A stretch of 55,882 nt of DNA from assembly GCA_020848455.1 (NCBI GenBank), contig JADLAB010000353.1, positions 1 through 55,882 of the forward strand, given 5' to 3'. Under the pieces are notes generated by a model. It was given only the letters and a program-made list of their open reading frames with translations, was not told where the DNA came from and did not search any database. A program made the translations under genes and the position numbers. This document shows positions 7,201 through 43,214 of the stretch, piece by piece. Origin of the DNA: Polyangiaceae bacterium. GTDB lineage: Bacteria; Myxococcota_A; Polyangia; Polyangiales; Polyangiaceae. The first letter of the stretch is position 1. Each line of letters opens with the position of its first letter.

Positions 7201-7250
7201 GGTCGCTCGCGAAAGAGACGGCGGAGAGTCGAGCCGGGGGACCGGGCGCG

Positions 7251-9242: not shown

Positions 9243-9354
9243 CAGCCGACCAGGTTACGCCAAGTGGCGCGGCGCCGGACAGCGTCTCGAAGCGGGTCGC
9301 GTGCCGCCGTCCCCTGGGCTCGCTCGCCTCCGAGCAGCAAGAAGGCGACGACCG

Positions 9355-9378
9355 CGGAGACGCGGAGACACGGAGAGC
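9355..9378 (+). repeat. Degenerate octad repeat (3 x 8 bp)
   Basis: Three consecutive octads CGGAGACG, CGGAGACA and CGGAGAGC lie in the 247-bp spacer between the stop of the thioredoxin-fold lipoprotein and the start of the PilT-like gene. The spacer holds no recognisable gene. Confidence 0.55.
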
Positions 9379-9421
9379 GGCACGGAGCCGGGCAAGGTTC
9401 AGCGGCTCCATCCACGCTCCG

Positions 9422-9456
9422 GCTTCTGGGCCTGAAGCCTGGAGCCAGAAGCCTGA
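9422..9456 (+). repeat. Degenerate heptad repeat array, AGCCNGA type (5 x 7 bp)
   Basis: Five heptads in register: GCTTCTG, GGCCTGA, AGCCTGG, AGCCAGA, AGCCTGA. The array also contains a 9-bp inverted repeat (GGCTTCTGG with CCAGAAGCC), so the RNA could fold. The flanking 17-mer starting GCTCCGGCTTCTGG is repeated exactly at 27699-27715, where the same kind of array follows. Confidence 0.7.
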
Positions 9457-9489
9457 CACCACCACATCACGCTCGGGCCGAGCTCCCTT

Positions 9490-10218
9490 CTAGAGTGCCG
9501 TGCCCGCGAGCGCCTTCTGGATGGCGCGATCGACTGCGGGCGGCGAGAAGCCTTGGACCAGCACGCCCCCCACGTCGAGGACCGGGATGCCGGCACCCCG
9601 CATGCCGGCGCGCTCGAGCTTCTGCACCATCTCGGCGCGCGCCGCCGAGTCCTCGTCGATGTCCTTGTGCACGACCGTGACGCCGCGACGCCTGAGGTAG
9701 GCCTCGGCGATATGGCACGGCTCGCACCACGCGGCGCCGTAGACGATCGCGGTCAGGCCGCTCAGCGCCCGCGGATCATCGAGCGGCGGCGTCGAGCGCG
9801 GCGGGGCGTCCCGGTCGGTGCCGGGCTCCGGCTGCTCGTGGGCCGCGAAGGCCTGCCGGCGCTTGTCGAGCAGGCTCTCCCACTCGGCGCGGGTCACCGT
9901 GTGGACGGGGTAGCTGCCGTCGGCGCCCGCCGTGCGGAGGTCGGCGACGTAGAAGAGCGCGCCCTCGCCCTGCAGTGGCGCCGTCACGACGACGCGCACC
10001 AGGCCGCGCCCCTGCTTCGGCACGGCGCCGACCTCCGTGGCGGTGTGCGTGGCGCCGCGCTCGTCCACCCACGTGAGCAGCAGGTTCGGGGTGTCGTTGC
10101 GCAGCTCGAGCGGCGGCAAGGAGGTGGCCGTCGCGGCGCCGCTCTCGCTCCGGTCGCAGGCGCTCGGTGCCGCGACCGCGAGCGCGAGCGCCAGCAAGAC
10201 GAGCGCGCTCCGCAGCAC
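9490..10218 (-). CDS. Lipoprotein with C-terminal glutaredoxin/thioredoxin-like CxxC domain
   Basis: A 242-residue envelope protein. The GTG at 10218 is preferred because it begins 4 nt after the ABC-F stop and gives a clean signal peptide (LALALAVAAPSAC); the in-frame ATG at 10281 would overlap the ABC-F gene. The middle region carries a DUF-like beta domain (LPPLELRNDTPNLLLTW) followed by a Pro-rich spacer. The C-terminal 80 residues are a glutaredoxin-like fold with CEPC active site (YGAAWCEPCHIAEAYL), a cis-Pro region GIPVLDV and an RAIQKAL helix. It probably handles thiol/disulfide exchange in the periplasm; partner unknown. Confidence 0.75.
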   Translation of the reverse strand: MLRSALVLLALALAVAAPSACDRSESGAATATSLPPLELRNDTPNLLLTWVDERGATHTATEVGAVPKQGRGLVRVVVTAPLQGEGALFYVADLRTAGADGSYPVHTVTRAEWESLLDKRRQAFAAHEQPEPGTDRDAPPRSTPPLDDPRALSGLTAIVYGAAWCEPCHIAEAYLRRRGVTVVHKDIDEDSAARAEMVQKLERAGMRGAGIPVLDVGGVLVQGFSPPAVDRAIQKALAGTAL

Positions 10219-10222
10219 CGCC

Positions 10223-12328
10223 TCAGCGCGCCGCGCCGCCGAGCTCCTCACCGAGCGTCGCCCATTCCTCGAGCATGCCATCGAGCCTGCGCTGCAGAGT
10301 CTGCTCTTCCTCGGCGAGCTTCGCCAGTGCGAGCCAGTCCTCGCCGGGCGGCTCCTTCAGCCGCTCACGCATGCCGGCGAGCCTCTGCTCGGCCGCCGCC
10401 ACCTCGCGCTCGAGCTCGACGAGGCGGCGCTGCTTGCGCTCGAGCTCGCGCTTCTCGCGCTTCTGAGCCTCGTACGACGCGGCCTCGGCGGCGGGCGCGG
10501 GCACGGGCGCGCCGGCACCGCGCGCCGCGTCCGGGCCACCCGCCGCCGTCGCTGCCGAGCGGCGCACGCGCCGCCCCTCGCCCGTGTCCGCCGCCGCGCT
10601 CGCCGCCGCCGCGCCCCGCCCGTTCGCGCCCGCGGCGCGCTCGGCCGCGGGGCTGGCGGCCGGCCGGCTCGATGCGCGCGCCGCGGCCGGCGCAGGCGCC
10701 CGCCCCTTCGCCGACGACGTCGCGGGCGCCGCGGCCCGGCGCGTCTGCGCGACGAAGTCGCGGTAGTTGCCCTCGTAGACGTCGATGCCCCCCTCGTGCA
10801 TCGCGACGATGCGCGTCGAGACGGTCTCGAGAAAGCGGCGGTCGTGGGACACGAAGACGACGCTCCCGTCGAAGCCGCACAGGGCCTCCTCGAGGATCTC
10901 GGCGGCCGGCATGTCGAGGTGGTTCGTCGGCTCGTCGAGGAAGAGCAGGTTCATCGGGTGCAGGAGCAGCTTGGCGAGCGCGAGGCGGCTGCGCTCCCCG
11001 CCGGAGAAGCTCGCGACGCGCCGGAACGGGTCGTCGCCGTAGAAGCGGAAGCGCGCCAGGTAGGCCCGCGCCCCGTCGTCGTTGAAGTCGCCGCGCACGC
11101 TGCGCACCTCCTCGATGGCGCTGCGCCGCTCCTCGAGCGAGCCGAGGTGCTGGTCGTAGTAGCCGGACGCGAGGTTCGCGCCGCGCTTGACCTCGCCGCG
11201 ATCCTCCGGGGCGCCCTGACCCGAGAGCAGCCGGAGGAGCGTCGTCTTGCCGGTACCGTTGGGGCCGATGACGCCCACGCGGTCGCCGCGCCGCACCAGC
11301 AGATCGAAGGGACCGAAGAGCCGACGGCCGCCGCGCGACGCCGTGAGGCCGTGGCAGTCGAGCACGAGGTCGCCCGAGCGCGGTGCGTCGACGAAGCGGA
11401 AGCGCACGCGCGCTGCGCGCTGCCACACGTCCTCGGGCCGGTCCACGCGCTCGAGCTTGTCGAGCATCTTGCGGCGGCTCTGCGCCTGCTTGGTCTTCTG
11501 GCCCGCGATGTTGCGGCGGATGAAGTCCTCGGTCTTCTGGACGAAGGACTGCTGGCGCTCCGCGAGCTCGCGCTCGCGCTCGAGGTCGGCGGAGCGCGCG
11601 ACCGCGTACTCGCTGTACGGCAGCGAGTAGACGCGGAAGGTCTTGCGCCCGAGCTCCATCGTCTGCGTCGTCACGTTGTCGAGAAAGGCGCGGTCGTGCG
11701 ACACGATGAGCTGGGCGGCGGACTGGCCGTTCAGGTAGTCCTCCAGCCACGCGATGGTCTCGAGGTCGAGGTGGTTCGTGGGCTCGTCGAAGAGCATCAG
11801 GCCCGCCGGCTTCGTGAGGCAGATGCCGAGCCGCAGCCGTCCGCGCTCGCCGCCCGACAGGCTCGCGATCGGCCGCGCGAGATCGCGGTCGCCGAAGCCG
11901 AGGTGCTGGGCCACCATCGCGACGCGCCGCTCGACCTCGTCGCCGCCCGCCACGTGGTAGCGCTCCATCGCGTGGGCGAGCGTCGCGAGGGCGCGGTCGG
12001 TGCCGCTCGCCGCGGCCTCCTGCGCCGCGTGGAGCTCGTCGCGGAGCGCGAGCAGCTCGCCGAAGCCCGAGAGCAGCGCCTCGGCCACCGTGCCCGTGGC
12101 ACCGAGCTCGTGCGACTGCCGGTAGTAGGACAGGCCCGCCTCCTTGTCGTACTGCACGCTGCCGGCGTCGGGCGCGAGCTCGCCCGCGAGGATGCGCAAC
12201 AGGGTCGTCTTGCCGGCGCCGTTGGGCGCCACGAGCCCGGCGCGCTCCCCCGCGTTGAGCACGAAGGTGACGTCCTCGAAGAGCGGCTCGTGCGTGTAGC
12301 CGAAGCGCAGGCCGGCGACCTGGAGCAT
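10223..12328 (-). CDS. ABC-F family ATPase (Uup/EttA-like) with C-terminal coiled coil
   Basis: A 701-residue soluble protein with two ATP-binding cassettes and no membrane domain, the signature of ABC-F translation factors that act on the ribosome. NBD1 has GAGKTTLLR and SLSGGERGRLRL; NBD2 has GPNGTGKTTLLR and FSGGERSRLALA; the interdomain linker (about 240-320) is Lys/Arg rich. After NBD2 come an Ala/Pro-rich linker of about 90 residues and a C-terminal coiled coil (EREVAAAEQRLAGMRERL), as in Uup. The start at ATG 12328 follows an AAGAG ribosome site. The lipoprotein gene downstream begins 4 nt after its stop, suggesting co-translation. Confidence 0.9.
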   Translation of the reverse strand: MLQVAGLRFGYTHEPLFEDVTFVLNAGERAGLVAPNGAGKTTLLRILAGELAPDAGSVQYDKEAGLSYYRQSHELGATGTVAEALLSGFGELLALRDELHAAQEAAASGTDRALATLAHAMERYHVAGGDEVERRVAMVAQHLGFGDRDLARPIASLSGGERGRLRLGICLTKPAGLMLFDEPTNHLDLETIAWLEDYLNGQSAAQLIVSHDRAFLDNVTTQTMELGRKTFRVYSLPYSEYAVARSADLERERELAERQQSFVQKTEDFIRRNIAGQKTKQAQSRRKMLDKLERVDRPEDVWQRAARVRFRFVDAPRSGDLVLDCHGLTASRGGRRLFGPFDLLVRRGDRVGVIGPNGTGKTTLLRLLSGQGAPEDRGEVKRGANLASGYYDQHLGSLEERRSAIEEVRSVRGDFNDDGARAYLARFRFYGDDPFRRVASFSGGERSRLALAKLLLHPMNLLFLDEPTNHLDMPAAEILEEALCGFDGSVVFVSHDRRFLETVSTRIVAMHEGGIDVYEGNYRDFVAQTRRAAAPATSSAKGRAPAPAAARASSRPAASPAAERAAGANGRGAAAASAAADTGEGRRVRRSAATAAGGPDAARGAGAPVPAPAAEAASYEAQKREKRELERKQRRLVELEREVAAAEQRLAGMRERLKEPPGEDWLALAKLAEEEQTLQRRLDGMLEEWATLGEELGGAAR

Positions 12329-14255: not shown

Positions 14256-14627
14256 ATGTCTGCTACGTCGAACGCCAACATCCTCGCCTCTCTCGAGTCC
14301 CCGCAGAAGCGCGCCGACGTGCCGCAGTTCCGCATCGGCGACACCGTGCGCGTCAACTACCGCGTGGTCGAGGGCGACAAGACGCGCGTGCAGGCCTTCC
14401 AGGGCATCGTGATCAAGCGCCACCGCGGCGGTCTCACGGCCACCTTCACCGTCCGCAAGGTGAGCTTCGGCGTCGGCGTCGAGCGCACGTTCCCGGCGCA
14501 CAGCCCGCGCATCGAGAGCGTGGAGCTGGTGAGCTCGGGTGACGTGCGGCGGGCGCGGCTCTTCTACCTGCGCACCCTGCGCGGCAAGGCCGCTCGTGTG
14601 AAGGCGCGCAAAGAGCAGCGCACCTGA
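14256..14627 (+). CDS. rplS: 50S ribosomal protein L19
   Basis: Binds at the interface of the large and small ribosomal subunits. The 123-residue product shows the L19 signatures [42 protein letters not shown] and RRARLFYLR. The ATG at 14256 follows a GAGG site. In many bacteria rplS ends an rpsP-rimM-trmD operon; here it stands alone with its own promoter and leader, between the TerB-like and FHA genes. Confidence 0.97.
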
Positions 14628-14967: not shown

Positions 14968-16818
14968 ATGAACTGTCCGCGATGTGGCTCTGCCAACCCG
15001 CCGTCGAACCAGACGTGCGCGGTGTGCTCGGCCCCCCTGATGGGTGGGCCGCCCGCGTACGGGCCGCCGGGCTTCGGCCCTCCGCCGCCACCCCCCGTCG
15101 GTGGGCCCCCGGGCTACGGGCCACCCCCGGGAGGGGGTTTCGGTCCCCCGCCGCCGCCTCCCATGGGCGGCCAGCCCGGCTTTGGACCACCGCCGCCTCC
15201 GCCGATGGGCGGCCAGGGTGGCTTCGGGCCGCCCCCACCCCCGATGGGCGGACCGCAGGGGTTCGGAGGGCCGCCTCCCGGTGGTGGGCCTCCGGGCTTC
15301 GGCCCTCCCCCGCCGCCGCCTCCGATGGGCGGGCCACCCGGCTTCGGGCCGCCGCCACCGATGGGCCCCGGCTTCGGACCGCCCCCGATGGGCGGGCAGC
15401 CCGACTTCGGACCGCCCCCGATGGGCGGGCCACCGGGTTTCGGACCGCCGCCGCCGCCCCCCCCGATGGGCGGGCCACCCGGCTTCGGGCCGCCGCCGCC
15501 ACCGCCACCCATGGGCGGCCCGGCCGGCTACGGGCCCGGTGATGGGTTCGGACCGCCGCCCATGGGCGGCCCGCCCGGCTACGGGCCCGGTGATGGGTTC
15601 GGACCGCCGCCCGGGCCACCGCCCGGAGGGCCCGGTTTCGGACCGCCACCGGCCGCTGGTGGCTACGGGCCGCCGCCACCTCCGGGGGGCGGCGGTGGCG
15701 GCTACCCTCCCCCGCCAATCCCGGCGGGGTATCCGCCCCCGCCGCAGGATCAGTACCCGCCCGGTCAGGGCCAGGGCGGCTTCGGTCCGCCGCCCGGTCA
15801 GGGCCAGGGCGGCTTCGGTCCGCCGCCCGGTGGGGGTGGCGACGAGCTCGGGGCGACCGCCTTCGCTCCAGGCATGGGGCCGCCGAACTTCGGCCCGCCT
15901 CCGCCGATGGGCGGACCGCCCCCGATGGGGCCGCCCGGCATGGGGCCGCCCCCGATGGGGCCGCCCGGCATGGGGCCGCCTCCGATGGGGCCGCCCGGCT
16001 TCGGGCCGCCTCCGCCGCCGATGGGACCGCCGGACTTCGGCCCCCCGCCGCCGATGGGGGGACCGCCCGGCATGGGGCCGCCTCCGATGGGGCCGCCTGG
16101 CATGGGACCGCCCGGCTTCGGGCCGCCCCCGCCCCCCCCGGGGCCGCCGGGCCCACCCGGCTTCGGGCCTCCCCCGCCCCCCCCGGACTTCGGCCAAGGG
16201 GGTCCGGGGTTCGGACCGCCGCCAGGGCCGCCGCCGGGACCGCCGGGATACGGCCCCCCACCGGGGCCGCCGGGGTATGGCCCGCCGCCGCCCCCGCCCC
16301 AGTACGACCAGCCGCCCGCCTTCGGGCCGCCGGGCGGCTTCGAGCCGCAGCCTCAGCCCCCTCAGTACGAGCCGCCGCCGCCGCCCCCTCAGTACGAGCC
16401 GCCCCCTGCCGGCCCCGAGGCGCGACCTCCGGCTGCACCCCCGCGACCGGCGCCCCCGACGCCCCGCAAAGACGCGCCCGCCGGACCGCGGCGCGTGCTC
16501 GCCGGCTTCCTCGTGAGCTTCCAGGACGACCCCTACGGGACGTTCTGGGCCCTGCACGAGGGGGACAACCTGGTCGGCCGCGCCGAGACGGCCGTGAAGG
16601 TGGACGTGGCCATCGCCCACGGCACCACCTCGACGCGCCACGCGACGATACGCTGCAACGACGGGGCGATCGTGCTGAGCGACATGCAGTCGACCAACGG
16701 CACGTTCCACAACCAGCAGCGGCTCGCGCCGCAGGCGTCGGTGCAGCTGAACGACGGAGACAAGGTCCGCTTCGGCGGGTACACGGTGAGCGTCATCGGT
16801 CTCGCGGGGCGGACCTGA
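14968..16818 (+). CDS. Zinc-ribbon / Gly-Pro-Phe low-complexity / FHA protein
   Basis: A 616-residue protein in three parts. Residues 3-20 are a zinc ribbon (CPRC...CAVC). Residues about 25-505 are an extreme low-complexity tract of Pro, Gly, Phe and Met (units such as GPPPPMGGPPGFGPP). Residues about 510-616 are an FHA domain with GRAE, the STRHA phosphothreonine-binding loop and STNGTFHN. No signal peptide or membrane segment is visible, so it should be cytoplasmic. FHA domains bind phosphothreonine peptides; the long disordered arm could make it a multivalent scaffold. It is the first gene of a plus-strand run that includes a PP2C phosphatase and other FHA proteins. The ATG follows an AAGGGA site. 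Confidence 0.85.
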   Translation: MNCPRCGSANPPSNQTCAVCSAPLMGGPPAYGPPGFGPPPPPPVGGPPGYGPPPGGGFGPPPPPPMGGQPGFGPPPPPPMGGQGGFGPPPPPMGGPQGFGGPPPGGGPPGFGPPPPPPPMGGPPGFGPPPPMGPGFGPPPMGGQPDFGPPPMGGPPGFGPPPPPPPMGGPPGFGPPPPPPPMGGPAGYGPGDGFGPPPMGGPPGYGPGDGFGPPPGPPPGGPGFGPPPAAGGYGPPPPPGGGGGGYPPPPIPAGYPPPPQDQYPPGQGQGGFGPPPGQGQGGFGPPPGGGGDELGATAFAPGMGPPNFGPPPPMGGPPPMGPPGMGPPPMGPPGMGPPPMGPPGFGPPPPPMGPPDFGPPPPMGGPPGMGPPPMGPPGMGPPGFGPPPPPPGPPGPPGFGPPPPPPDFGQGGPGFGPPPGPPPGPPGYGPPPGPPGYGPPPPPPQYDQPPAFGPPGGFEPQPQPPQYEPPPPPPQYEPPPAGPEARPPAAPPRPAPPTPRKDAPAGPRRVLAGFLVSFQDDPYGTFWALHEGDNLVGRAETAVKVDVAIAHGTTSTRHATIRCNDGAIVLSDMQSTNGTFHNQQRLAPQASVQLNDGDKVRFGGYTVSVIGLAGRT

Positions 16819-16986
16819 CCCAGCGCGCGCCGCGTCCGACCCGGTGGAGGGACGCGGGGCAGCGGGGCCAGGGTCCAGGCTCGTCGGGGTTGGCGCAGCG
16901 CGCGCTCTCGTCTAACGGCCAGGTATGCTCGCACTAGGCGGCGCGGTCCGGCAGCGGGCACGCCCTCGGAACCACGGAGAAGTCGC

Positions 16987-19278
16987 ATGACCGATCAGGC
17001 ACAGCGATGTCGCGCGCGCGCTACCGAAGCGACACCGGCACGGGAGACGGGCCCCTCCGGCGCGTGCGCCCTGGCAGCGCGCCGGCTGGCGCGCGGGGTG
17101 GGCCTCGCCGCCGTCGCGGGGCTGGTCATGCTCTGCGCGGGACTGGCCCACGCGGCGCCGACCGCCAAGATCATGCGCATCGACCCCCGGGCCAGCATGG
17201 ACTCCGGCGTGCCCCTCATCTCGATGGTGGTCGATCTGTCGGAGTGGCGCTCGACCAGCGACGCTCTGGCGGGCTGCGGGACGCCCAACAGCTCCAACGA
17301 CTACCTCGACTGCGCCGCCGACTCGCTCGAGCGCGGCGAGGCCACGTACAAGCCGCTCAAGTGGCCGGGCGAGCCCGCGAGCGGCGAGCCCGACATCGGC
17401 GCCGAGAAGCAGAACGCTCAGCTGCTCGTCACCGTGGACGGCGTGGACATGCCCGCCGAGTACACGGCGCGCACGCGCTGGGGCAAAAGCAAGGACCAGC
17501 CGGGGGTCGGAACGGCCTACCTCATCCTCATCGACGCTTCCGGCAGCATGGGCGGCCGCCTCGACCACGCCAAGATGGTGGCCAAGGCCTTCATCGACAA
17601 GAAGGACCGCAACGACATCTTCAACATCAAGGCGTTCAACGACATCGCGGTGTTGCCGGGCTCGGGCTGGCTGAACGACGCCAACGCCCTCAGGGGCGCC
17701 ATCGACTCCGTCGCCAAGACGTCCGCGACCCAGGGCCGCGCCCGACCGCTCTTCAACCTCATCAAGCAGGCGACGATCGACGGCTTCTCGGAGCTCGGCA
17801 ACGTCGGCCAGCGCGTCGAGACGCCGATGCACCAGGCGCTCATCGTGCTGTCGGACGGGTGGGCCGGCACCGACGCCAGCTCGGCGCCGCCGCTCGCCAT
17901 CGAGCTCGGCAACTACCTCGCCAAGGGCATCCTCGACGAGAACAACCTCACGCTGCCGCGCATGCCGATCCCGGTCGTGAGCGTCTGGTTCCCCGTGACG
18001 GCGATGGAGGAGTTCTTCGAGAACTCGCGCGAGTTCATGAAGAACCTGCCCGTGCCCTCGGTGGGTGGCGGCTTCTTCCTGGTGCGCGACGGCAAGGAGA
18101 ACCGCGCGGGCAACATCGTGGCGGCGGTCAAGCGCCGCTTCGACCAGATGCACATCGTCAAGTGGAAGGTCGCCTGCCTGCAGCCCAACTTGAACCAGAC
18201 GCTCAAGCTCGCGTTCATCCGCACGAGCGTCAACATCGCGGGCGACAGCTTCGTCAACGCGCCGCTCGGCGTCGACCCCACCCTCTGGCCGCTCGACGTC
18301 AACGTCGAGGAGACGACCAAGGCCGCGAGCAAGGACCCCATCTACCCCGGCGGAAAGGTGCAGATCTACGGCAACTTCTGCTGGGGCAACGACGCGCAGC
18401 GCGCCGAGCTCTACCTCATCCCGAAGAACCAGGACCTGCCCGAGACGATCAAGAACATGACCGTCGAGGACGCCAAGAGCCTGCGCGACTCGCTCACCAA
18501 GGGCGGCTTCCGCGGCACGGCGATCAAGAGCGGCGAGAACTTCGTCGAGTTCCAGCTGCCCGACAACGAGAAGTTCCTGACGGGCAAGGAAGACAACTAC
18601 ACCGCGCGCATCATCGTGCTCGACGGCAAGAGCAAGCGCTTCAGCGCCGTGACCCAGAGCGCGGTCATCTCCGTCAAGGCCAAGAAGCCGCCGATGAGCC
18701 TGGTCACCATGCTCCTCATCGGCGGAGGGGCCTTCGGCGGCACGGTCATCCTGCTCCTGCTCGTCACGGTGTTCCGGAGCGGCGGCAAGCGCCGCGGCGG
18801 CGGTGGCGGACCGCCGCCTCGACCGGTCGTCGCGGCCGGCGGCCCCGCGCCCGCGCCGTTCCCGCAGCCCGCCCCGGTCATGCCCGGTCCGATGCCGATG
18901 GCGCCGGCCCCCGCCCCGATGGGCCCGCCGGGCGGCGCCCCCTCGCCGTTCGGAGCGCCGCCCGCCGCGGCGGCGCCCCAGATGGTGCAGCAGGCCACGC
19001 TCTCCGGCCCGCCTGGCATGTTCCCGATCACGCCGGGCCGCGAGGTGCGCGCCGGGCGCGACCCCGGCACGTGCGAGATCGTGCTGAGCGAGCCGCGGGT
19101 GAGCGGCACGCACGCCACCATGAAGATCGACGGTGGGCAGCTGTTCGTGCGCGACGAGGGCTCGAACAACGGCACCTTCGTGAACGGCGGGCGCATCCAG
19201 GCGCACGTGTGGACGCCCGTGGGTCAGGGTGCCAGCGTGAAGTTCGGCCCGATCGAGTTCAGCGTGCGGCTGGAGTAG
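16987..19278 (+). CDS. vWA - transmembrane - FHA signalling protein
   Basis: A 763-residue protein starting at ATG 16987 behind GGAG. A signal sequence (about 35-57, ending AHA) sends the following part to the periplasm. A vWA domain begins near residue 178 with LILIDASGSM (MIDAS D183, S185, S187). A beta-rich region follows, then one transmembrane helix (about 571-596, LLIGGGAFGGTVILLLLVTVF), a Gly/Arg stop-transfer, a Pro/Ala linker and a C-terminal FHA domain (GRDPGTCEIVLSEP, SGTHATM, NNGTFVNG). Topology therefore links a periplasmic ligand- or metal-binding vWA to a cytoplasmic phosphothreonine reader. It is 24 bp from the PP2C gene. The vWA-plus-PP2C pairing recalls TerY-type systems, but the membrane FHA fusion differs. 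Confidence 0.86.
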   Translation: MTDQAQRCRARATEATPARETGPSGACALAARRLARGVGLAAVAGLVMLCAGLAHAAPTAKIMRIDPRASMDSGVPLISMVVDLSEWRSTSDALAGCGTPNSSNDYLDCAADSLERGEATYKPLKWPGEPASGEPDIGAEKQNAQLLVTVDGVDMPAEYTARTRWGKSKDQPGVGTAYLILIDASGSMGGRLDHAKMVAKAFIDKKDRNDIFNIKAFNDIAVLPGSGWLNDANALRGAIDSVAKTSATQGRARPLFNLIKQATIDGFSELGNVGQRVETPMHQALIVLSDGWAGTDASSAPPLAIELGNYLAKGILDENNLTLPRMPIPVVSVWFPVTAMEEFFENSREFMKNLPVPSVGGGFFLVRDGKENRAGNIVAAVKRRFDQMHIVKWKVACLQPNLNQTLKLAFIRTSVNIAGDSFVNAPLGVDPTLWPLDVNVEETTKAASKDPIYPGGKVQIYGNFCWGNDAQRAELYLIPKNQDLPETIKNMTVEDAKSLRDSLTKGGFRGTAIKSGENFVEFQLPDNEKFLTGKEDNYTARIIVLDGKSKRFSAVTQSAVISVKAKKPPMSLVTMLLIGGGAFGGTVILLLLVTVFRSGGKRRGGGGGPPPRPVVAAGGPAPAPFPQPAPVMPGPMPMAPAPAPMGPPGGAPSPFGAPPAAAAPQMVQQATLSGPPGMFPITPGREVRAGRDPGTCEIVLSEPRVSGTHATMKIDGGQLFVRDEGSNNGTFVNGGRIQAHVWTPVGQGASVKFGPIEFSVRLE

Positions 19279-19302
19279 CCCGGCCAGCCTGGAAAGCGCA
19301 CC

Positions 19303-20631
19303 GTGCCCGTCCCCACCACGCCGGACTCCCCCCACGCGCACGGCGCCGGCGGGGGTCTGCGCCTCGAGTACGGGCAGACGAGCGACCCCGGCCGCGACCC
19401 CGCCAAGCAGGTCAACGAGGACAGCTGCGGCTACGCCGAGACCAAGTTCGGCCACCTGTTCGTCATCTGCGACGGGATGGGTGGCCACGTGGGCGGCAAG
19501 GAGGCGAGCACCATCGCCATCCGCACCATCTTCGAGACCGTCGCGGCGACGCCGAGCGGCACCCCGCCGCCCGCCGCGCTGCGCGCCGCCATCGAGGAGG
19601 CGGCGCGCCGGGTGTACCACTTCGGTGGCGCGGGGCAGCACCTGCAGCGGCCGGGCTCGACCTGCGTCGCCGTCCTGATCCACGAGGGCGGGCTCGAGGC
19701 GGCGCACGTCGGCGACAGCCGGGCGTACGCCATCCGCAGCGGCGAGATCTACCGGCTCACGCGCGACCACTCGATGGTCCAGAACCTGGTCGATTCCGGC
19801 GTCCTCACGGAGGCCGAGTCGATCGGCCACCCGGACGCCAACAAGATCACCCGCGCGCTCGGCATGACCCCGAGCGTGGACGTCGACGTGCGGCCCGAGC
19901 CGATGGAGCTGTTCGAGGGCGACGTCATCCTCCTCGCGAGCGACGGCCTGACGGACATGGTGCGCAACGAGGAGATCCTCGCGACCACGCTCGGGGCCCT
20001 GCCCGCGGGGGGCATCCAGCACGCCTGCGATCGCCTGGTCGCGGTCGCGAACGACCACGGGGGTCACGACAACGTGACGGTGCAGCTCGTCCGCGTGCTC
20101 GAGGCAGCGCAGAAGAACGTGGCCCCCACGATGGCGGACCAGCCACTCGCCCTGCCACCGGGCCCGGAGGCGGCGCGCCCCAAGCCGACCACCGTCGAGA
20201 CGCCCGCGTTCCGCGTGTCGAGCACCGTCACGGACGAGGCCCACGACGTGCCGCCCCTCGCCCTGCGCCCGCTCGAGGCGCCGCCGGGGCCGGGCGGCGC
20301 GCGCGCCGCCTCCGCCGCGGGCGTAGCCCTCGCGGCCGGTCCGCAGCCCGGCCCCGTGCCGGCAGCTCCGGCGGGCGTGCCCGGCAACCTGAGCACCACC
20401 ACGCCCGATGGGCCGGGGCCCACCATCATCGACGCCCACGGGAGCGGCGCGCTCGGCGCGACACCGCTCGCGGGTCCGGTCGGCCACGCGCACCGCTACG
20501 CCCCGATCCCGCCCCCGGCCTGGAGCGGCGCCCACGAGCCGCCGCGACGCCTGCTCTACCTCGTGCTCGGCATGGCGAGCGCGATCGGGATCCTGCTCGC
20601 CCTGCTCATCTGGGCGCTCTGGTATCGCTGA
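19303..20631 (+). CDS. PP2C-family Ser/Thr protein phosphatase with C-terminal membrane anchor
   Basis: A 442-residue protein from GTG 19303. The catalytic domain (about 20-265) has the PP2C metal ligands in order: VNEDS, ICDGMGGHVGG, GDSRAYAI, LLASDGLTD and HDNVTV, so it should be active. A Pro/Ala-rich linker of about 150 residues leads to a C-terminal transmembrane helix (LVLGMASAIGILLALLIWALW), placing the phosphatase on the cytoplasmic face of the membrane. It would reverse threonine phosphorylation read by the FHA proteins on either side. No protein kinase is encoded in the window. Confidence 0.92.
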   Translation: MPVPTTPDSPHAHGAGGGLRLEYGQTSDPGRDPAKQVNEDSCGYAETKFGHLFVICDGMGGHVGGKEASTIAIRTIFETVAATPSGTPPPAALRAAIEEAARRVYHFGGAGQHLQRPGSTCVAVLIHEGGLEAAHVGDSRAYAIRSGEIYRLTRDHSMVQNLVDSGVLTEAESIGHPDANKITRALGMTPSVDVDVRPEPMELFEGDVILLASDGLTDMVRNEEILATTLGALPAGGIQHACDRLVAVANDHGGHDNVTVQLVRVLEAAQKNVAPTMADQPLALPPGPEAARPKPTTVETPAFRVSSTVTDEAHDVPPLALRPLEAPPGPGGARAASAAGVALAAGPQPGPVPAAPAGVPGNLSTTTPDGPGPTIIDAHGSGALGATPLAGPVGHAHRYAPIPPPAWSGAHEPPRRLLYLVLGMASAIGILLALLIWALWYR

Positions 20632-20690
20632 GACACGGACGCAGGCGGACGCCCACGCGCCGGCGGCATCGTGGTAACAACTGACGCCGT

Positions 20691-23600
20691 ATGCTCCCCG
20701 GCTTCGGCAAGCAGGCGATCACCATCGGCAGCGCCCCGAGCTGCGACATCGTGCTCCCGGGCACCGCCCCCGAGCACGCGCGCATCGTCCACCAGGGCGG
20801 CGGCAAGCTCGTGTTCGTCGCGAGTGCCGCCGGCCAGTCGTTCGCCGACCGCCGACCGCTCGCCGCCGGGGAGCAGGTCGCGTTCGACTTCCGCGCGCTC
20901 TTCCACGTCGGCCAGGCGCAGGTCCCCTTCGACCACCCCGCCATCACGCTGATGCTGATGGCCCGGGGCGCGCACCCCGCGCCCGCGGGCCAGCTCGTCA
21001 TCGGCCGCGACGCCACGCGCGCTTCGCTCGTCGTCGGGCACCCGAGCGTGTCGAGCCTCCACGCCACGCTGAACGCGGACGCCCTCACGCTCACGGACCA
21101 CGGCTCGACGAGCGGCTCGTACGTCGGCGGGCAGCGCATGCCGCCGAACACGCCGACGCCCGTGGCGGCCCAGGGCGTCGTGTTCTTCGGGCCGGTGCCG
21201 GTACAGGTGAGCCTGCTGCTGCAGCTCGCCGGCCGCGGGCAGCCGCAGGCGGCCGCGCCCTGGGCGCCGACACCGGGCATGATGCCCGCGCCGCAGGCGC
21301 AGCCGTCGGCGCAGATGGCGGCCCAGCCCGCCGCGCAGCCGCAGGGCGTGGGCACGATGGCGGTGCCCGCGGCGCAGGCGCTCGCGGTGGCGCAGGCCTC
21401 GGCGGCGGCCGGAGGCGGCGCGGGCGGCCCCTCGATGCCCGGGGGCCAGGCGCAGCTGAAGAAGCACAAGACGGTCTTCGGCCAGCTCGACTTCAACGCC
21501 ACGGCCGGCGGCGCCGCGGTGAAGACCATCGGCCGCACGCCGAACAACGACATCGTGGTGCCCCACGCGCAGGTCTCGTCGCGCCACGCCGTCGTGCACC
21601 AGATCGGCGGCCAGCTCTACGTCGAGGATCGCGGCAGCGCCAACGGCACCTACGTCCAGGGCCATCGCATCGCGCCCGGACAGAAGGTCGCCATCCGCAC
21701 GGGCGAGAAGATCTACGTCGGCCCGATGCCGCTGCAGCTCAACATCTCGGCGACGGGCGCGGTCGAGGTGGCCTACGAGGCCTACTCCGAGGAGCGCTGG
21801 GGCGGGCGCCCGCTCTACGAGATCGAGGCCTGGAGCCTCGTCGTGCAGGTTCCCGACCGCGACCGCAAGGGCGAGACCAAGACGCTGCTCGACAACATCT
21901 CCTTCAAGGCCCTGCCGGGCGACATGATCGCCCTCATGGGGCCGAGCGGCGCCGGCAAGACGACGCTGCTCATGACGCTCAACGGCTACATGCCGCCCAC
22001 GAGCGGCATGGTGCGCATCAACGGCGAGGACCTCTACAACATCTACGACACGCTGCGGGGCTCCATCGGCTACGTGCCGCAGGACGACCTCGTGCACCCC
22101 GAGCTCACGGTGTTCGAGGCGGTGCGCTACAGCGCCAAGTTCCGCCTGCCGCCCGACTACTCGAGCGAGGAAATCGACCAGCGGGTGATGCAGACCATCA
22201 AGGACCTCGGCCTCGAGGGCGTGGCCAACCTGCAGATCGGCGCCCCCGAGAAGAAGACCTTGTCGGGCGGCCAGCGCAAGCGCGTCAACATCGCGCTCGA
22301 GCTCGTGACCGACCCGGTCATCCTCTACCTCGACGAGCCGACGAGCGGGCTCGCCTCCGACGACGCAGCGAGCCTCATCCACCTGTTGCACGACCTCGCC
22401 AAGGCCACCGGCAAGACGATCATCATGACGATCCACCAGCCGGCCAAGGACGAGTTCGAGAAGTTCAACATGGCGCTCATCCTCGGCTACGGGGGCGTGC
22501 CCATGTTCTTCGGGCCGACGGCGCCCGACGCCTACCGCTTCTTCGGCAACTTCGCGCAGCGCAGCCGCCCGGGCGCCGTCATCGACAATCCGCGCGACAT
22601 GTTCGCGGTGATCACCGAGCGCGAGAAGCCGATCTTCGAGCAGCTCAAGGCCCAGAATCCCAACGCCGAGCGCCACGAGGCGCGCTACCAGGCGGCCCTG
22701 CAATGGCGGCAGGAGTACTACCAGGACGCCAACCCCATCTACCGGCGCATGTACTCCGGCCGGCGCGCCGTCGGCACGGGCGACGGGGCACGCGCCATCC
22801 CCGAGCGGCGCCCCTCGACCAAGGGGCAGTTCCGCCTGCTCCTGTCGCGCTACTTCAAGACCAAGGTGCGCGACGTCGGCGGCACCGTGATCATGTTCGC
22901 GCAGGCGCCCATCATCGGCATCCTGCTCGCGGCGGTGTTCGGCGGCCAGCAGGCGGCCGCACCCGCCTGGTGCCTCGGCGCCCTGCAGGAGGTGCGCGAC
23001 AAGTACAAGGACCAGATGAAGGGCGGCGGCGAGATCATCCTGCAGCAGACGCAGGATCACACCGGCGCGCTCTTCTTCCTGGTGGTGGCGGCGATCTGGT
23101 TCGGCACCTCGAACGCGGCGCGCGAGATCGTGCGCGAACGGTCCATCTACCTGCGCGAGCGCATGGTGACTCTGGGCCTGTTCAACTACGTCATGTCGAA
23201 GTTCGTGCTCCTGGCGCTCTTCTGCGTGGTGCAGTGCACGCTCCTGCTCAGCATCGTGTTCTTCGCCCTGAAGTTCAGCGGCGGCATGCAGGCCTTCGCG
23301 CTCGAGCTCGCTGCGCTCACCGCCACGGCGGTCGTGGCCGTGGCGATAGGCCTGCTCCTGTCGACGATCGTGCAGTCGAGCGAGGCGGCGATGGCGCTCA
23401 CGCCCATCGCGCTCATCCCGCAGGTCGTGCTCGGCGGGCTCATGGTCCCGGCCACCACCATCCCGAAGCTGGCGTTCCTCATGTACGGCATCCCGGCACG
23501 CTGGGGCTTCGAGGCGGTCGTCATGCACGAGCGCCTGGCGATCTCGAGCGATCCGGCGTGGCTCATCGACCTCAGCCAGCAGCTGTCGGGCAAGCTGCCC

Positions 23601-23792
23601 CCGGAGGACTTCTTCGAGGAAGGCGGGAAGTTCCGCTGCGCCATCGCCCAGATGGCGAGCGACTCCCTCAACGGCGCCTGGGGCTTCAGCACCTTCGAGC
23701 AGCGCTATCTCCCCTACGCGGTCATGGCGGGGATGACGCTGGTCCTGTTCATCCTCATGTGTGTCATCCTCAAGCGCCGCGATCCAGTGTGA
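20691..23792 (+). CDS. FHA-domain ABC exporter (ABCG/Rv1747-like), three FHA-type repeats
   Basis: A 1033-residue half-transporter. Residues about 1-85 are a degenerate FHA-like domain (IGSAPSCDIVLP, EHARIV); about 95-175 a second (GRDATRAS, SSLHATL, STSGSYVGG); about 265-345 a canonical FHA (GRTPNNDIVV, SSRHAVV, SANGTYVQG). An ATPase domain follows with GPSGAGKTTLL (about 417), LSGGQRKRV (about 525) and VILYLDEPTSGL, of the ABCG type. The C-terminal 300 residues hold about six transmembrane helices (ABC2 type). The order FHA-NBD-TMD is that of mycobacterial Rv1747, whose FHA domains are read by a Ser/Thr kinase. The substrate here is unknown; a lipid or glycolipid is an inference from the family. 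Confidence 0.9.
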   Translation: MLPGFGKQAITIGSAPSCDIVLPGTAPEHARIVHQGGGKLVFVASAAGQSFADRRPLAAGEQVAFDFRALFHVGQAQVPFDHPAITLMLMARGAHPAPAGQLVIGRDATRASLVVGHPSVSSLHATLNADALTLTDHGSTSGSYVGGQRMPPNTPTPVAAQGVVFFGPVPVQVSLLLQLAGRGQPQAAAPWAPTPGMMPAPQAQPSAQMAAQPAAQPQGVGTMAVPAAQALAVAQASAAAGGGAGGPSMPGGQAQLKKHKTVFGQLDFNATAGGAAVKTIGRTPNNDIVVPHAQVSSRHAVVHQIGGQLYVEDRGSANGTYVQGHRIAPGQKVAIRTGEKIYVGPMPLQLNISATGAVEVAYEAYSEERWGGRPLYEIEAWSLVVQVPDRDRKGETKTLLDNISFKALPGDMIALMGPSGAGKTTLLMTLNGYMPPTSGMVRINGEDLYNIYDTLRGSIGYVPQDDLVHPELTVFEAVRYSAKFRLPPDYSSEEIDQRVMQTIKDLGLEGVANLQIGAPEKKTLSGGQRKRVNIALELVTDPVILYLDEPTSGLASDDAASLIHLLHDLAKATGKTIIMTIHQPAKDEFEKFNMALILGYGGVPMFFGPTAPDAYRFFGNFAQRSRPGAVIDNPRDMFAVITEREKPIFEQLKAQNPNAERHEARYQAALQWRQEYYQDANPIYRRMYSGRRAVGTGDGARAIPERRPSTKGQFRLLLSRYFKTKVRDVGGTVIMFAQAPIIGILLAAVFGGQQAAAPAWCLGALQEVRDKYKDQMKGGGEIILQQTQDHTGALFFLVVAAIWFGTSNAAREIVRERSIYLRERMVTLGLFNYVMSKFVLLALFCVVQCTLLLSIVFFALKFSGGMQAFALELAALTATAVVAVAIGLLLSTIVQSSEAAMALTPIALIPQVVLGGLMVPATTIPKLAFLMYGIPARWGFEAVVMHERLAISSDPAWLIDLSQQLSGKLPPEDFFEEGGKFRCAIAQMASDSLNGAWGFSTFEQRYLPYAVMAGMTLVLFILMCVILKRRDPV

Positions 23793-23819
23793 GACGTGGC
23801 TCGCAGCGCCCACCCAGCC

Positions 23820-26549
23820 ATGCGTAGTCGTCGATGCCGAAGTACCCGCGCACGCGCCGCGGGCGCGCTCCTGGCGGCCGGCCTCGCGCTCGGGCCGAGC
23901 CTCGCGCGTGCGCAGCAACCGCAGCCCGAGCCGCCGCCGGACCAGAGCTACGATCAGTACGGGCGGCCCATTCCCAGGCCCGCCCAGCCCGAGCCCGAGA
24001 AGAAGAAGCCGACCCCGCCGAAGCCGCTCAACTACGTGCCGCCCGTCTACCCCGAGGAGGCCCGCAAGCTGGGCCTCGAGGGCGAGGTCATCCTCAAGCT
24101 GAGCGTGAGCACCGAGGGCAAGGTCGACGCGGCCGAGGTCGCGACGCCCGGTGGCCACGGCTTCGACGAGGCCGCGCTTGAGGCCGCGAAGGGCCTCTCC
24201 TTCGAGCCGGCGCGCAGGCCCGACGGCACGCCCTTCGCGGCGCGCATTTCGTATCGCTACGCCTTCAAGCTCGCGCCCGCGGAGCCAGCCGGGCCGGAGC
24301 CGGCCGCGGTGAAGACCGGCGTGCTCAGCGGCAAGGTGCTCATCCAGGCCATCGACGAGCCGCTCGCCGGTGCCACCGTGACGATGGTCGGGCCGGGCGG
24401 GGTGCCGCGCGTCACGGTCGTGACCGGCGTCGACGGCACCTTCAGCTTCCCCGATCTCTTGCCGGGCGCCTACCAGCTCGGCGTGAGCGCCCCGGGCTAC
24501 GTCGACTTCAGCGCCACCGAGGACGTCGAGGCCGGCGCGGAGAGCATCGCCACCTACCGCGTGTCGGCCGAGCTCGCGGGCGCCATCGAGGTCACCGTCG
24601 AGGGCGACCGGCCGCCGCGCGAGGTCACGCGCCGCACGCTCGAGCAGCGCGAGATCGCGCGCATCCCGGGCACGAGCGGCGACGCCCTGCGCTCGGTCCA
24701 GAGCCTGCCCGGCGTGGCGCGTCCGCCGGGTCTCGCGGGCCAGCTGCTGGTGCGCGGCTCCGGGCCCTTCGACACGGCGACCTTCATCGACGGCATCCCG
24801 GTGCCGCTCATCTACCACTTCGGCGGGCTCTCGTCGGTCGTGCCCACCGAGCTCTTGAGCAAGATCGACTTCTACCCGGGCAACTTCTCGAGTCGCTACG
24901 GTCGCGTGATGGGCGGCATCGTGGACGCGGGCATCCGCTCGCCCAAGAACGAGTACCACGGCATGGCGCAGGTCGATCTCATCGACTTCCGGCTCATGGC
25001 CGAGGGGCCCATCCCGGGCTTCCCGCCGGGCTGGACCTTCGCCGCCGCCGGGCGCCGCAGCTGGCTCGACACCTGGCTCGGCCCGGTGCTCGAGGAGGCG
25101 GGCGCGGGCGTCACGCAGGCGCCCGTCTACTACGACTACCAGTTCCTCGTGGAGAAGCGTGCCCCCACCTGGCGCTACCGCACCTCCTTCTACGGCTCCG
25201 ACGACAAGCTCGAGCTCGTCGTCAAGGAGCCCGCGCCCGGCGAGCCGGCGCTGTCCGGGGACATCGGTCTGCACACCGCCTTCATGCGCCTGCAGTTCCA
25301 GGCCGACGGCAACCTGACGCCGCGCGACCGCATCGAGTCCGTGTTCGCGCTCGGGAGCGAGAACATCGACTTCGGCCTCGGGGAAATCTACTTCATGCTG
25401 CGGGCGCGCTCGCTGACGGGGCGGCTCGAGTACACCCACACGTTCTCGGACGTGCTCAAGCTCAACGTCGGTGCCGACGTCAACGCGGGCCTCTACGACG
25501 TCAAGGTGCGCCTCCCGTCCCCGCCGGGTCCGGGGCAGCCCCCGAACCAGCCCTTTTCGACCAGCGTGCTCGACGAGTCGAACGAGCAGGGGACGGCGAT
25601 CCGCCCCGCGGGCTACCTCGAGTTCGAGCTCACGCCCGACAAGCGCCTGCGCATCGTGCCGGGGCTGCGCATCGACTACACGAAGGACACGAAGCGCCTC
25701 GACGTGAACCCGCGCCTCACGGCGCGCTACCTCATCGCCGACGAGCTGCCCAAGACCGCCGTGAAGGCCGGCATCGGCGTGTTCACGCAGCCGCCGCAGT
25801 TCCAGCAGTCCGCGAGCAGCATCGGCACGCCCGATCTGCGCTCCTCGCGCGCCATCCACTACGCGCTCGGGCTCGAGCAGGACATCACCGAGCAAGTCGA
25901 CGTCTCGGTGGAGGGCTTCGTCAAGCAGCTCAACGACCAGATCGTGGGGCGCCCGTCTGCGAGCGGCACCGGGCTCGACTACGACAACAAGGGCCTCGGC
26001 TACGTGGTCGGCGCCGAGGTGCTGCTCAAGTACAAGCCGGACAAGCACTTCTTCGGCTGGCTCGCCTACACCCTGTCGCGCAGCGCGCGCCAGAACGGCC
26101 CGGGCGAGCCCGAGTACCTCGTGAGCTTCGACCAGACGCACATCCTCACGGTGCTCGGCAGCTACCAGGTCGGCAACGGCTGGGAGTTCGGCGCGCGCTT
26201 CCGGCTCATCTCGGGCAACCTGCTGACGCCGAACGTGTGCGACTTCACCGACAAGGAGTGCGATCCCAAGCGCATCGGCGGCTTCTTCCACGGGCCGAGC
26301 GGCGCCTACACCGCCGTGCCCTTCGGCTCGGTCACGAGCGAGCGCCTGCCGGTGTTCCACCAGCTCGACGTGCGCGTCGACAAGAAGTGGGAGCTCGACG
26401 GCTGGCAGCTCTCGACCTACCTCGACGTGCAGAACGCCTACAACTCCCTCAACGTCGAGGGGCTCGTCTACAACTACAACTTCACCGCGCGGCAGTACCT
26501 GACCGGCATCCCCATCCTGCCGAGCGTCGGCCTGCGAGGAGAGTTCTGA
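23820..26549 (+). CDS. TonB C-terminal domain fused to a TonB-dependent outer-membrane receptor
   Basis: A 909-residue protein starting at ATG 23820 (signal peptide ending ARAQ near residue 33), 27 bp after the ABC gene. Then come a Pro/Lys-rich segment; a TonB C-terminal-like domain (about 50-140: YPEEARKLGLEGEVILKLSV, FDEAALEAAKGLSFEPA); a carboxypeptidase-regulatory-like beta domain (about 160-230: GVDGTFSFPDLLPG); a plug domain (QSLPGVARPPGL, LVRGSGPFDTATFIDGIPV); and a beta barrel ending in a terminal aromatic (LRGEF). It is predicted to take up or export a large substrate across the outer membrane. Carrying its own TonB-like domain is the odd feature. Confidence 0.85.
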   Translation: MRSRRCRSTRARAAGALLAAGLALGPSLARAQQPQPEPPPDQSYDQYGRPIPRPAQPEPEKKKPTPPKPLNYVPPVYPEEARKLGLEGEVILKLSVSTEGKVDAAEVATPGGHGFDEAALEAAKGLSFEPARRPDGTPFAARISYRYAFKLAPAEPAGPEPAAVKTGVLSGKVLIQAIDEPLAGATVTMVGPGGVPRVTVVTGVDGTFSFPDLLPGAYQLGVSAPGYVDFSATEDVEAGAESIATYRVSAELAGAIEVTVEGDRPPREVTRRTLEQREIARIPGTSGDALRSVQSLPGVARPPGLAGQLLVRGSGPFDTATFIDGIPVPLIYHFGGLSSVVPTELLSKIDFYPGNFSSRYGRVMGGIVDAGIRSPKNEYHGMAQVDLIDFRLMAEGPIPGFPPGWTFAAAGRRSWLDTWLGPVLEEAGAGVTQAPVYYDYQFLVEKRAPTWRYRTSFYGSDDKLELVVKEPAPGEPALSGDIGLHTAFMRLQFQADGNLTPRDRIESVFALGSENIDFGLGEIYFMLRARSLTGRLEYTHTFSDVLKLNVGADVNAGLYDVKVRLPSPPGPGQPPNQPFSTSVLDESNEQGTAIRPAGYLEFELTPDKRLRIVPGLRIDYTKDTKRLDVNPRLTARYLIADELPKTAVKAGIGVFTQPPQFQQSASSIGTPDLRSSRAIHYALGLEQDITEQVDVSVEGFVKQLNDQIVGRPSASGTGLDYDNKGLGYVVGAEVLLKYKPDKHFFGWLAYTLSRSARQNGPGEPEYLVSFDQTHILTVLGSYQVGNGWEFGARFRLISGNLLTPNVCDFTDKECDPKRIGGFFHGPSGAYTAVPFGSVTSERLPVFHQLDVRVDKKWELDGWQLSTYLDVQNAYNSLNVEGLVYNYNFTARQYLTGIPILPSVGLRGEF

Positions 26550-27661
26550 TGCTGCCGAGAACCGTGCTCTCGGGCCCGCGTCGTCCGGGCCGCTACCGGC
26601 GTGCGGTGCTCGCGGCGCTGGCAGGTGGCCTGCTCTTCGGACCGAGCTGCGCGGCCTCGTTCCTGCCGTCGAGCTACGTGAACAGCCTGCGCGTCCTCGC
26701 GGTCACGATCGACGCGCCCTACGCGGCGCCGGGCGACGAGGTGACGTTCCGCATGACGGTCCACGACGGCCTCGATCCCGTCAACGGCCCGCGCGCCATC
26801 CAGGTCGTGTGGATCGGCGGCTGCTTCGACCCCGAGGGCGACCGCTACTACCTCTGCTTCCAGCAGCTGGCCGAGACCCTCGCGGGCCTCGCGGGCGGGG
26901 GCCCGCCGCCGACCGAGCTGCTCAAGCTCGACCTCGTCGCGCCGACCTCGAGCGGCGTGCCGGATCTGTCGAGCTTCACGCTGCGCCTGCCCGACGACAT
27001 CATCTCGCGCCGGCCCCCGCCGGTCTCGGGCCCGCACTACGGGATCGGCTACGTGTTCTTCGCCGCCTGCGCCGGCACGCTGGCGCCGGGCGAGCTCACC
27101 TCGCCCTCGGGCGGCGCCGTGCCCGACTTCCCCATCAAGTGCCTCGACGCGAACGGGCAGGAGCAGGGTCCCGAGAGCTTCGTGCCGGGCTACACGCAGG
27201 TCTACGCTTTCGCCGACGGCCGGAGCAACACGCCGCCCCCCGTCGCCGGGATTCGCCTTGGCGACTTCGAGCTGCCCGAGGACGCCGCGCTCGCGCCCAC
27301 CGTGCCGCGCTGCCCGCTCACCGCCGACGACCGCAGAAAGAGCGGCTGCGCGCGCCCCACCGACGACGCCTGCGTGGACCTCGACTTCGAGGTGCTGGTC
27401 GGCGACGTGGCCGAGGTGGATCCCGACTCCAAGGGCCCACTCGGCGAGACGCGGCGCGAGGTCGTGTGGGAGAGCCACTTCGCCGACGGCGGCGACTTCG
27501 CCTCGGATCTGTTGCTCGTCAGCTCCTCGGAGGGCGGCCCGCAGCCGCACGTGACGAGCTGGACGCCGCCCTCCGAGCCCGGCGTCGTCACCTTCTGGGC
27601 GGTGGGGCGCGATCAGCGCGGCGGCGCGAGCGTGGTGCGCCGCTTCGTGCGCGTCGAGTGA
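26549..27661 (+). CDS. Putative lipoprotein, partner of the TonB-dependent receptor
   Basis: A 370-residue protein whose ATG overlaps the receptor stop (TGATG) and follows a GAGGAGA site, so the two are translationally coupled. The N terminus has a basic region and hydrophobic stretch ending GPSC (cysteine about residue 34), a plausible though imperfect lipobox. The mature part is beta-rich with about eight cysteines (GGCFDPEGDRYYLCFQ, CPLTADDRRKSGCARPTDDAC), and ends in a region resembling an Ig-like domain (GVVTFWAVGRDQRGG). Coupling suggests it is the surface or periplasmic partner of the receptor. I do not recognise a named family. Confidence 0.75.
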   Translation: MLPRTVLSGPRRPGRYRRAVLAALAGGLLFGPSCAASFLPSSYVNSLRVLAVTIDAPYAAPGDEVTFRMTVHDGLDPVNGPRAIQVVWIGGCFDPEGDRYYLCFQQLAETLAGLAGGGPPPTELLKLDLVAPTSSGVPDLSSFTLRLPDDIISRRPPPVSGPHYGIGYVFFAACAGTLAPGELTSPSGGAVPDFPIKCLDANGQEQGPESFVPGYTQVYAFADGRSNTPPPVAGIRLGDFELPEDAALAPTVPRCPLTADDRRKSGCARPTDDACVDLDFEVLVGDVAEVDPDSKGPLGETRREVVWESHFADGGDFASDLLLVSSSEGGPQPHVTSWTPPSEPGVVTFWAVGRDQRGGASVVRRFVRVE

Positions 27662-27772: not shown

Positions 27773-28468
27773 CTAGAGCGCGTACGTCTCGGCGAGGTAG
27801 CGCACGATGTCGGCCGACTCGAACATCTCGCGACCGGTGTTCGGATCGAAGAGGTAGGGGACCTGCATCTTTCCCGAGCGGGCGACGAAGGCCGGGCGGC
27901 TCGGGCTCCGCTTCGCGACGTTGTGCAGCACGTACGGCAGCTCGAGCTCGCACAGGGTCTCCCGCGCCAGCCGGCAGTAGGGCGAGGCCTCGAAGCTCCA
28001 GAGCTCGAGGGGGCGCTCGGGCGCCCGCGCCGGACGGTGACGGGCGCCCTTGCCCGCGCGCGCGAGGCTCGCCGCGGCGGAGCGCGCCGTGTCGAGGGGG
28101 CCGAGGGCGAGCCTGAACGGGGCGCGCCCGCTGCCGTAGGTCGCGTGGAGGTAGCGCACGATGGCCGCCGACTCGTAGAGCTCGCGGCCGGTGTTGGGAT
28201 CGACGAGAAAAGGGAACTGCGCCTTGCCGCCGCGGCGCTCGACCTCGGCGCGGAAGCGCCCGCCGCCCTTCGGGCACGGGTACACCAGGGCCTCGAGATC
28301 GAGCTCGGACAAGGCCTCGCGCACCTTGCGGCAGAAGGGACAGCCCTCGAACTCGTAGAGCTCGAGCCGCTCATCCGGGCGCGCTCCGTGCGCCGTCGTG
28401 GCGAGCCCGGCGCCGAGCTCGAGCACGCTCGACAGGTAGGAGGTGGTGACGTCGACGACGCGGTTCAT
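27773..28468 (-). CDS. Protein with two tandem GST N-terminal/glutaredoxin-like domains
   Basis: A 231-residue cytoplasmic protein made of two thioredoxin-fold modules of the GST_N type. The first (about 33-115) has EGCPFCRKVREAL with a dithiol CPFC; the second (about 150-231) has EASPYCRLARETL with a single cysteine. Each ends with a matching FLVDPNTGRELYES...IVRYL or YLFDPNTGREMFES...IVRYL segment, proving internal duplication. No GST C-terminal helical domain follows. Similar double-GST_N proteins occur in plants and cyanobacteria; the substrate is unknown, though glutathione-linked redox chemistry is likely. Confidence 0.8.
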   Translation of the reverse strand: MNRVVDVTTSYLSSVLELGAGLATTAHGARPDERLELYEFEGCPFCRKVREALSELDLEALVYPCPKGGGRFRAEVERRGGKAQFPFLVDPNTGRELYESAAIVRYLHATYGSGRAPFRLALGPLDTARSAAASLARAGKGARHRPARAPERPLELWSFEASPYCRLARETLCELELPYVLHNVAKRSPSRPAFVARSGKMQVPYLFDPNTGREMFESADIVRYLAETYAL

Positions 28469-31410: not shown

Positions 31411-33291
<1,881 letters not shown>

Positions 33292-33481
33292 GGCGCCAGT
33301 CGGGGACCCTAGCAGACGGTGGGGGCTGGTTCTATGTGAACCGCCGCGAGGCCCCCGATCCTCGCACCGATGTGGGACCATGTGCTCAACACGCCGCAAG
33401 CCCGGGCCGTGTGCACCGGTCCCCGAGCCGCGCCGCGGCCCGTGGCCGGGCGACCGCGCGACCGCGCGGAGCGCTCGCGAG

Positions 33482-41168: not shown

Positions 41169-43091
<1,923 letters not shown>

Positions 43092-43214
43092 GGCTCCACC
43101 ATGGCCGAGCGACGCGCTGCCGGTCAACCGCTGCGACCACCCGGACATGGCAACGCCGGCCACCGCCCACGCAGGCGGGGCCGGCGTCGCAACCGGCGTC
43201 CGGGGCTGGTCAGG

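Follow-up and report, generated by a model that had tools for sequence, protein, structure and literature searches.

Rv1747 of Mycobacterium tuberculosis is an FHA-ABC transporter in which phosphorylation by PknF promotes condensates of the FHA region and the phosphatase PstP reverses them (PMC9312465), and which may export PIMs (PMC5549992). Related domains are combined differently in the TerY-P triads, in which a vWA protein and a PP2C phosphatase accompany a kinase with a fused zinc ribbon (PMC11090510), and in Sulfolobus, where the FHA protein ArnA and the vWA protein ArnB interact through phosphorylation (PMC6509490). Here we analysed a stretch of 55,882 nucleotides from a Polyangiaceae bacterium (hereafter the window), which contains a run of six genes coding for FHA, vWA, PP2C, ABC exporter, TonB-dependent receptor and lipoprotein-like proteins (Table 1). 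In the open-access literature searched, we found no paper describing this gene combination.

All six genes lie on one strand, with spacers of 168, 24, 59 and 27 bp between genes 1 to 5 and a 1-nt overlap between genes 5 and 6, the start of gene 5 being taken as the ATG at 23820 (its longest ORF begins with the GTG at 23796). Pfam assigns FHA domains to genes 1 and 2 and, in two stretches, to gene 4, which also matches ABC_tran and ABC2_membrane; gene 3 is assigned to PP2C. In gene 5 a TonB_C domain of its own at the N-terminus is followed by CarboxypepD_reg, Plug and TonB barrel, the last two above cut-off, and gene 6 has no Pfam match. The first-pass annotation had given the same genes, coordinates, strand, spacers and domains, FHA domains in three genes included, almost exactly as found here; it did not list the TonB_C region of gene 5, a Cys4 zinc ribbon in gene 1 and a third, degenerate FHA-like segment in gene 4. 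Elsewhere on the contig, the minus strand encodes a further phospho-reader regulator, an FHA-GAF-sigma54 activator (41169-43163), as well as a PgpH-like protein with 7TM-7TMR_HD and HD domains (31411-33567), a protein with two tandem glutathione-S-transferase N-terminal/glutaredoxin-like stretches (27773-28468) and a T2SSE-type ATPase domain within a long ORF (6124-9465).

Table 1. Features of the gene run and its upstream flank, in positions of the window.
Feature	Position	Strand	Basis
rplS (ribosomal protein L19), upstream flank, outside the system	14256..14627	+	NCBIfam TIGR01024
Gene 1, zinc-ribbon/FHA protein	14968..16818	+	ORF, Pfam
DELGATAFAP, candidate phosphothreonine motif in gene 1 linker	15841..15870	+	Sequence motif
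Gene 2, vWA/FHA protein	16987..19278	+	ORF, Pfam, model, hydropathy
MIDAS residues of the vWA (DASGS ... SDG)	17521..17868	+	Canonical in window
Gene 3, PP2C	19303..20631	+	ORF, Pfam, hydropathy
PP2C tail sites of T-x-x-D/E type (APTMAD, TTVE, STVTDE, PTIIDA)	20119..20436	+	Motif search
Gene 4, FHA-ABC exporter	20691..23792	+	ORF, Pfam
Gene 5, TonB-dependent receptor	23820..26549	+	ORF, Pfam
Gene 6, lipoprotein-like secreted protein	26549..27661	+	ORF; structure prediction of low confidence

A core of four co-directional genes, coding for the zinc-ribbon/Pro-rich/FHA protein, the vWA/TM/FHA protein, the PP2C and the ABCG-type FHA exporter, recurs in the same arrangement in about twelve genera of the family, and also in one genome from a second family of the same taxonomic order. 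The vWA/FHA protein matched 24 of 39 relatives (the genome of the window counted), almost all of them from this family, with two genomes from the second one, and in a wider draw of 38 genomes from the phylum it gave four matches, all within the same family. Among the fetched loci, gene 1 was found in 22, the PP2C in 21, the vWA gene in 29 and the ABC gene in 26, the last two counts not being independent because both proteins served as baits. When 15 other flanking genes of the window were followed in the same way, rplS aside, one recurred in two loci and none of the remaining 14 in more than one; the farthest of them lie outside the reach of the fetched loci, so that only the nearest provide a fair control. 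The order of the core is thus conserved far beyond chance. This supports a conserved phospho-signalling and transport unit, a candidate system in the first-pass annotation, which had named a lack of conserved order in relatives as its refutation.

This unit is neither fixed in its setting nor invariant in its parts. rplS lies upstream in 17 fetched loci and was not found in five others in which core genes are present (L046, L048, L049, L050 and L053), so that the genomic setting of the cluster varies. No PP2C match was found between the vWA gene and the exporter in L035, L043 and L055, three of the clusters, and in genome G006 the vWA gene is on a separate contig, indicating that not every part is needed. 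The distance from PP2C to exporter ranges among relatives from an overlap to 6.5 kb, the largest insert being that of L046, and a single transcript cannot therefore be general. Between PP2C and exporter, L048 carries a gene for a Cys-rich secreted protein of 440 residues (10039-11361). Most members of the family possess one FHA-exporter per genome, and a plasmid search with the exporter gave no match. The six genes had initially been considered as one unit: this stands for the four-gene core, whereas the receptor/lipoprotein pair is clade-specific and the run is not indivisible.

The exporter encoded by gene 4 begins with a degenerate FHA-like segment, followed by FHA-B, FHA-C, the nucleotide-binding domain (NBD) and the ABC-2 membrane domain, in the order typical of ABCG proteins. 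Its two N-terminal FHA domains are separated by a linker that, judged from composition only, is disordered. FHA-C is canonical, with phosphothreonine-binding residues present in most relatives; in FHA-B, Asn is replaced at one binding position by Ser, or by Ala in one case. A conserved Thr where FHA-C begins (KxKTVxG) was not counted as a phosphosite, as it may be a structural beta-strand residue.

In the gene 2 product, hydropathy indicates a signal peptide ahead of the vWA ectodomain and a single TM helix, with KRR after it, between the ectodomain and a disordered linker that leads to the FHA domain; this would place the vWA in the periplasm and the FHA in the cytoplasm. The vWA scores under the Pfam cut-off (20.5 vs 27 bits) and sequence searches with an ectodomain profile gave no relative of solved structure, but the predicted ectodomain (pLDDT 88) has a clear vWA fold, residues 109-334 aligning to vWA domains with Z of about 16-17.6. 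The predicted topology is also that of the first-pass annotation. As to a vWA set into a beta-sandwich, the arrangement of vWA2/ArnB, Foldseek listed ArnAB (8s05, E 1.3e-7) for the ectodomain, with TM-scores of only 0.27 and 0.35. The binding residues of the gene 2 FHA are kept in most relatives where this domain was within the alignment; the conserved Thr in its ATLSG motif may likewise be a structural beta-strand residue and was set aside as a phosphosite. The MIDAS is canonical in the window and degenerate in most relatives, making metal-dependent binding by the vWA unlikely as a general mechanism.

Gene 3 scores above the Pfam cut-offs for PP2C and remains below the Stp1/IreP equivalog cut-off (206.4 vs 230 bits). 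Its catalytic domain, predicted to be cytoplasmic, is followed by a disordered tail of about 150 residues and, consistent with the membrane anchoring suggested earlier, by a C-terminal TM anchor predicted from hydropathy. Catalytic motifs were recognized in most relatives, some motif searches having failed where frames break or vary. The tail is rich in Thr followed by an acidic residue at +3. At this position FHA domains can select Asp, as Rad53-FHA1 strongly does (PMC4037201). In 14 PP2C tails we counted 45 T..[DE] and 20 T[VILM].[DE] motifs where 10.1 and 1.6, respectively, were expected, the expectations coming from shuffles that ignore shared ancestry and local repeats. Versions of the motif with Ser, Ala, Pro, Gly or Gln were not enriched in these 14 tails, and a control of five paralogous PP2C proteins from the same genomes had no T[VILM].[DE] in their tails against 1.5 expected. 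The hydrophobic forms tested were not found in the PP2C tails of L033, L047, L048 and L053. We propose the T-x-x-D/E motifs as candidate phosphothreonine docking sites. A further candidate lies in gene 1, which encodes a Cys4 zinc ribbon (residues 1-20), a Pro/Gly-rich linker of 487 residues and a C-terminal FHA domain. This linker has only two Thr in the window, one of them inside the DELGATAFAP motif, and a related motif occurs in the window and nine relatives among 18 zinc-ribbon homologs, being missing in the other eight. The recurrence of such a motif in a Thr-poor linker points to a second possible docking site.

Taken together, these observations lead us to propose, with a probability of roughly 55%, that the core encodes a phosphothreonine-gated, Rv1747-like exporter module that has a phosphatase of its own and, in the periplasm, a sensor or scaffold. 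Gene 4 would be the ABCG-type exporter, moving a presumptive substrate outwards, and its N-terminal FHA tandem would bundle or gate it. A Ser/Thr kinase encoded elsewhere would phosphorylate Thr residues in the PP2C tail and in the linker of the zinc-ribbon protein, and these sites would be bound by the FHA domains that genes 1, 2 and 4 encode. The exporter would thereby join the sensor, the phosphatase and the zinc-ribbon protein in one multivalent, membrane-attached assembly, much like the Rv1747 condensates that form on phosphorylation. Kept in this assembly through its own tail, the PP2C would strip the phosphates and reset the system, while the periplasmic vWA of gene 2 may relay the state of the envelope, or a ligand, to its own cytoplasmic FHA. 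In one clade, a TonB-fused outer-membrane receptor and a lipoprotein might lengthen the path to the outer membrane. Points against the proposal are the clusters without a PP2C or vWA gene and the PP2C tails and zinc-ribbon linkers in which the candidate motifs were not found. The more ambitious form of this proposal is rather doubtful: the phosphothreonine/FHA network would be self-contained, with the phosphatase recruited via the phosphorylated T-x-x-D/E repeats of its tail and the periplasmic vWA reporting the envelope state, and both would jointly control the exporter, itself coupled to the TonB-fused outer-membrane channel in that clade.

The kinase would have to come from outside the run, as already noted in the first-pass annotation: the Ser/Thr kinase catalytic-loop motif is found in none of the six frames of the window. 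This lack of a neighbouring kinase says little, because each of five genomes has at least 138 Ser/Thr kinase matches. Only genome G011 has kinases inside the cluster, two in number. Both are of the Hanks type with a hydrophobic N-terminal half, lie between PP2C and the FHA-exporter (L046, 9684-11297 and 13537-15195 on the reverse complement of the locus), and are the strongest candidates for a kinase of the cluster. A cluster-linked kinase was otherwise rejected, since kinases in or near some relatives are expected from their density and no shared position was seen.

Concerning genes 5 and 6, it is almost an even question whether they rather form an independent uptake pair that settled behind the exporter in one clade, a reading compatible with the exporter module proposed for the four-gene core. 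TonB-dependent receptors usually import, and the pair is missing behind the exporter in most relatives. Receptor and lipoprotein directly follow the exporter in the window, in its congener G001 and in G006, G020 and G015. In the exporter tree the pair-bearing loci and L010 make up a single clade (support 0.994). In L010 a nucleotidase gene and an opposite-strand gene displace the receptor from the exporter. The former, immediately behind the exporter (17883-19349), encodes a 5'-nucleotidase-like metallophosphatase. Against independence, four genera keep the pair immediately downstream of the exporter, with 41-55% identity, and between two congeners most substitutions in genes 4-6 are at third codon positions, suggesting that the pair is under purifying selection. 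In addition, Oar, a TonB-dependent transporter of Myxococcus xanthus, works in secretion (PMC6434023). Gene 6 is of unassigned family and is conserved beside gene 5; its structure model is poor (pLDDT 54).

It is unlikely that the FHA, vWA and PP2C proteins constitute a general envelope phospho-signalling hub, with the ABC protein acting mainly as a membrane scaffold and not as an exporter of a dedicated substrate. The two to three FHA-like domains ahead of the transporter and a core without substrate genes would fit such a hub, but in the window gene 4 has intact Walker A (GPSGAGKTT) and signature (LSGGQRKR) motifs, and of the core genes the exporter is one of the most alike between relatives. 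Still less credible is a metal- or stress-sensing or defence switch of the TerY-P type, built from vWA, PP2C, zinc ribbon and kinase, with the exporter as a chance output. As in the triads (PMC11090510), vWA, PP2C and zinc ribbon are found together; however, the vWA of the cluster is not cytosolic and TerY-like but has a signal peptide, a TM helix and an FHA domain, the metal site of this vWA is degenerate in most relatives, and the zinc ribbon is carried by an FHA protein and not by a kinase, of which the window has no motif. Nor was any TerY model matched in PADLOC, NCBIfam or Pfam, and the likeness to TerY triads suggested initially does not hold. Finally, a chance neighbourhood of unrelated genes, conceivable where FHA and kinase genes are very numerous, is rejected for the four-gene core by synteny, the same order being found in many genera while the near flanks do not recur.

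Ser/Thr kinases and FHA proteins are very numerous in myxobacteria, and the genome of the window has at least 138 Ser/Thr kinase and at least 51 FHA matches. The exporter module proposed here is a compact conserved unit that brings together reader domains, an eraser, a likely sensor, an output and named candidate phosphosites, and it thereby makes FHA logic in myxobacteria directly testable.

ArnA has a zinc finger; compared with the ArnA/ArnB pair, the vWA of the cluster is predicted to be periplasmic and has its own FHA domain, and evidence of shared ancestry goes no further than the fold. Gene 5 resembles MxcH/Oar-type transporters in its succession of N-terminal TonB_C region, CarboxypepD_reg, plug and barrel, and its TonB_C region with the part that follows matches positions 1-240 of the MxcH model, but it scores far under the cut-off (93.9 vs 925 bits) and is paired with a lipoprotein of unassigned family. 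The comparison with Rv1747, made in the first-pass annotation, holds: gene 4 and Rv1747 share an FHA tandem with a disordered linker, then an NBD, then a membrane domain, in the same order (PMC9312465, PMC5549992). Where PstP reverses the Rv1747 condensates, the cluster encodes its own PP2C, for which we propose the reset role. It differs from Rv1747 in having no adjacent kinase, in the phosphatase, vWA-FHA and zinc-ribbon-FHA proteins encoded beside the myxobacterial exporter, in the extra degenerate FHA-like segment of that exporter, and in belonging to a Gram-negative envelope, to which one clade adds a TonB receptor. The cluster thus offers a Gram-negative comparison for Rv1747.
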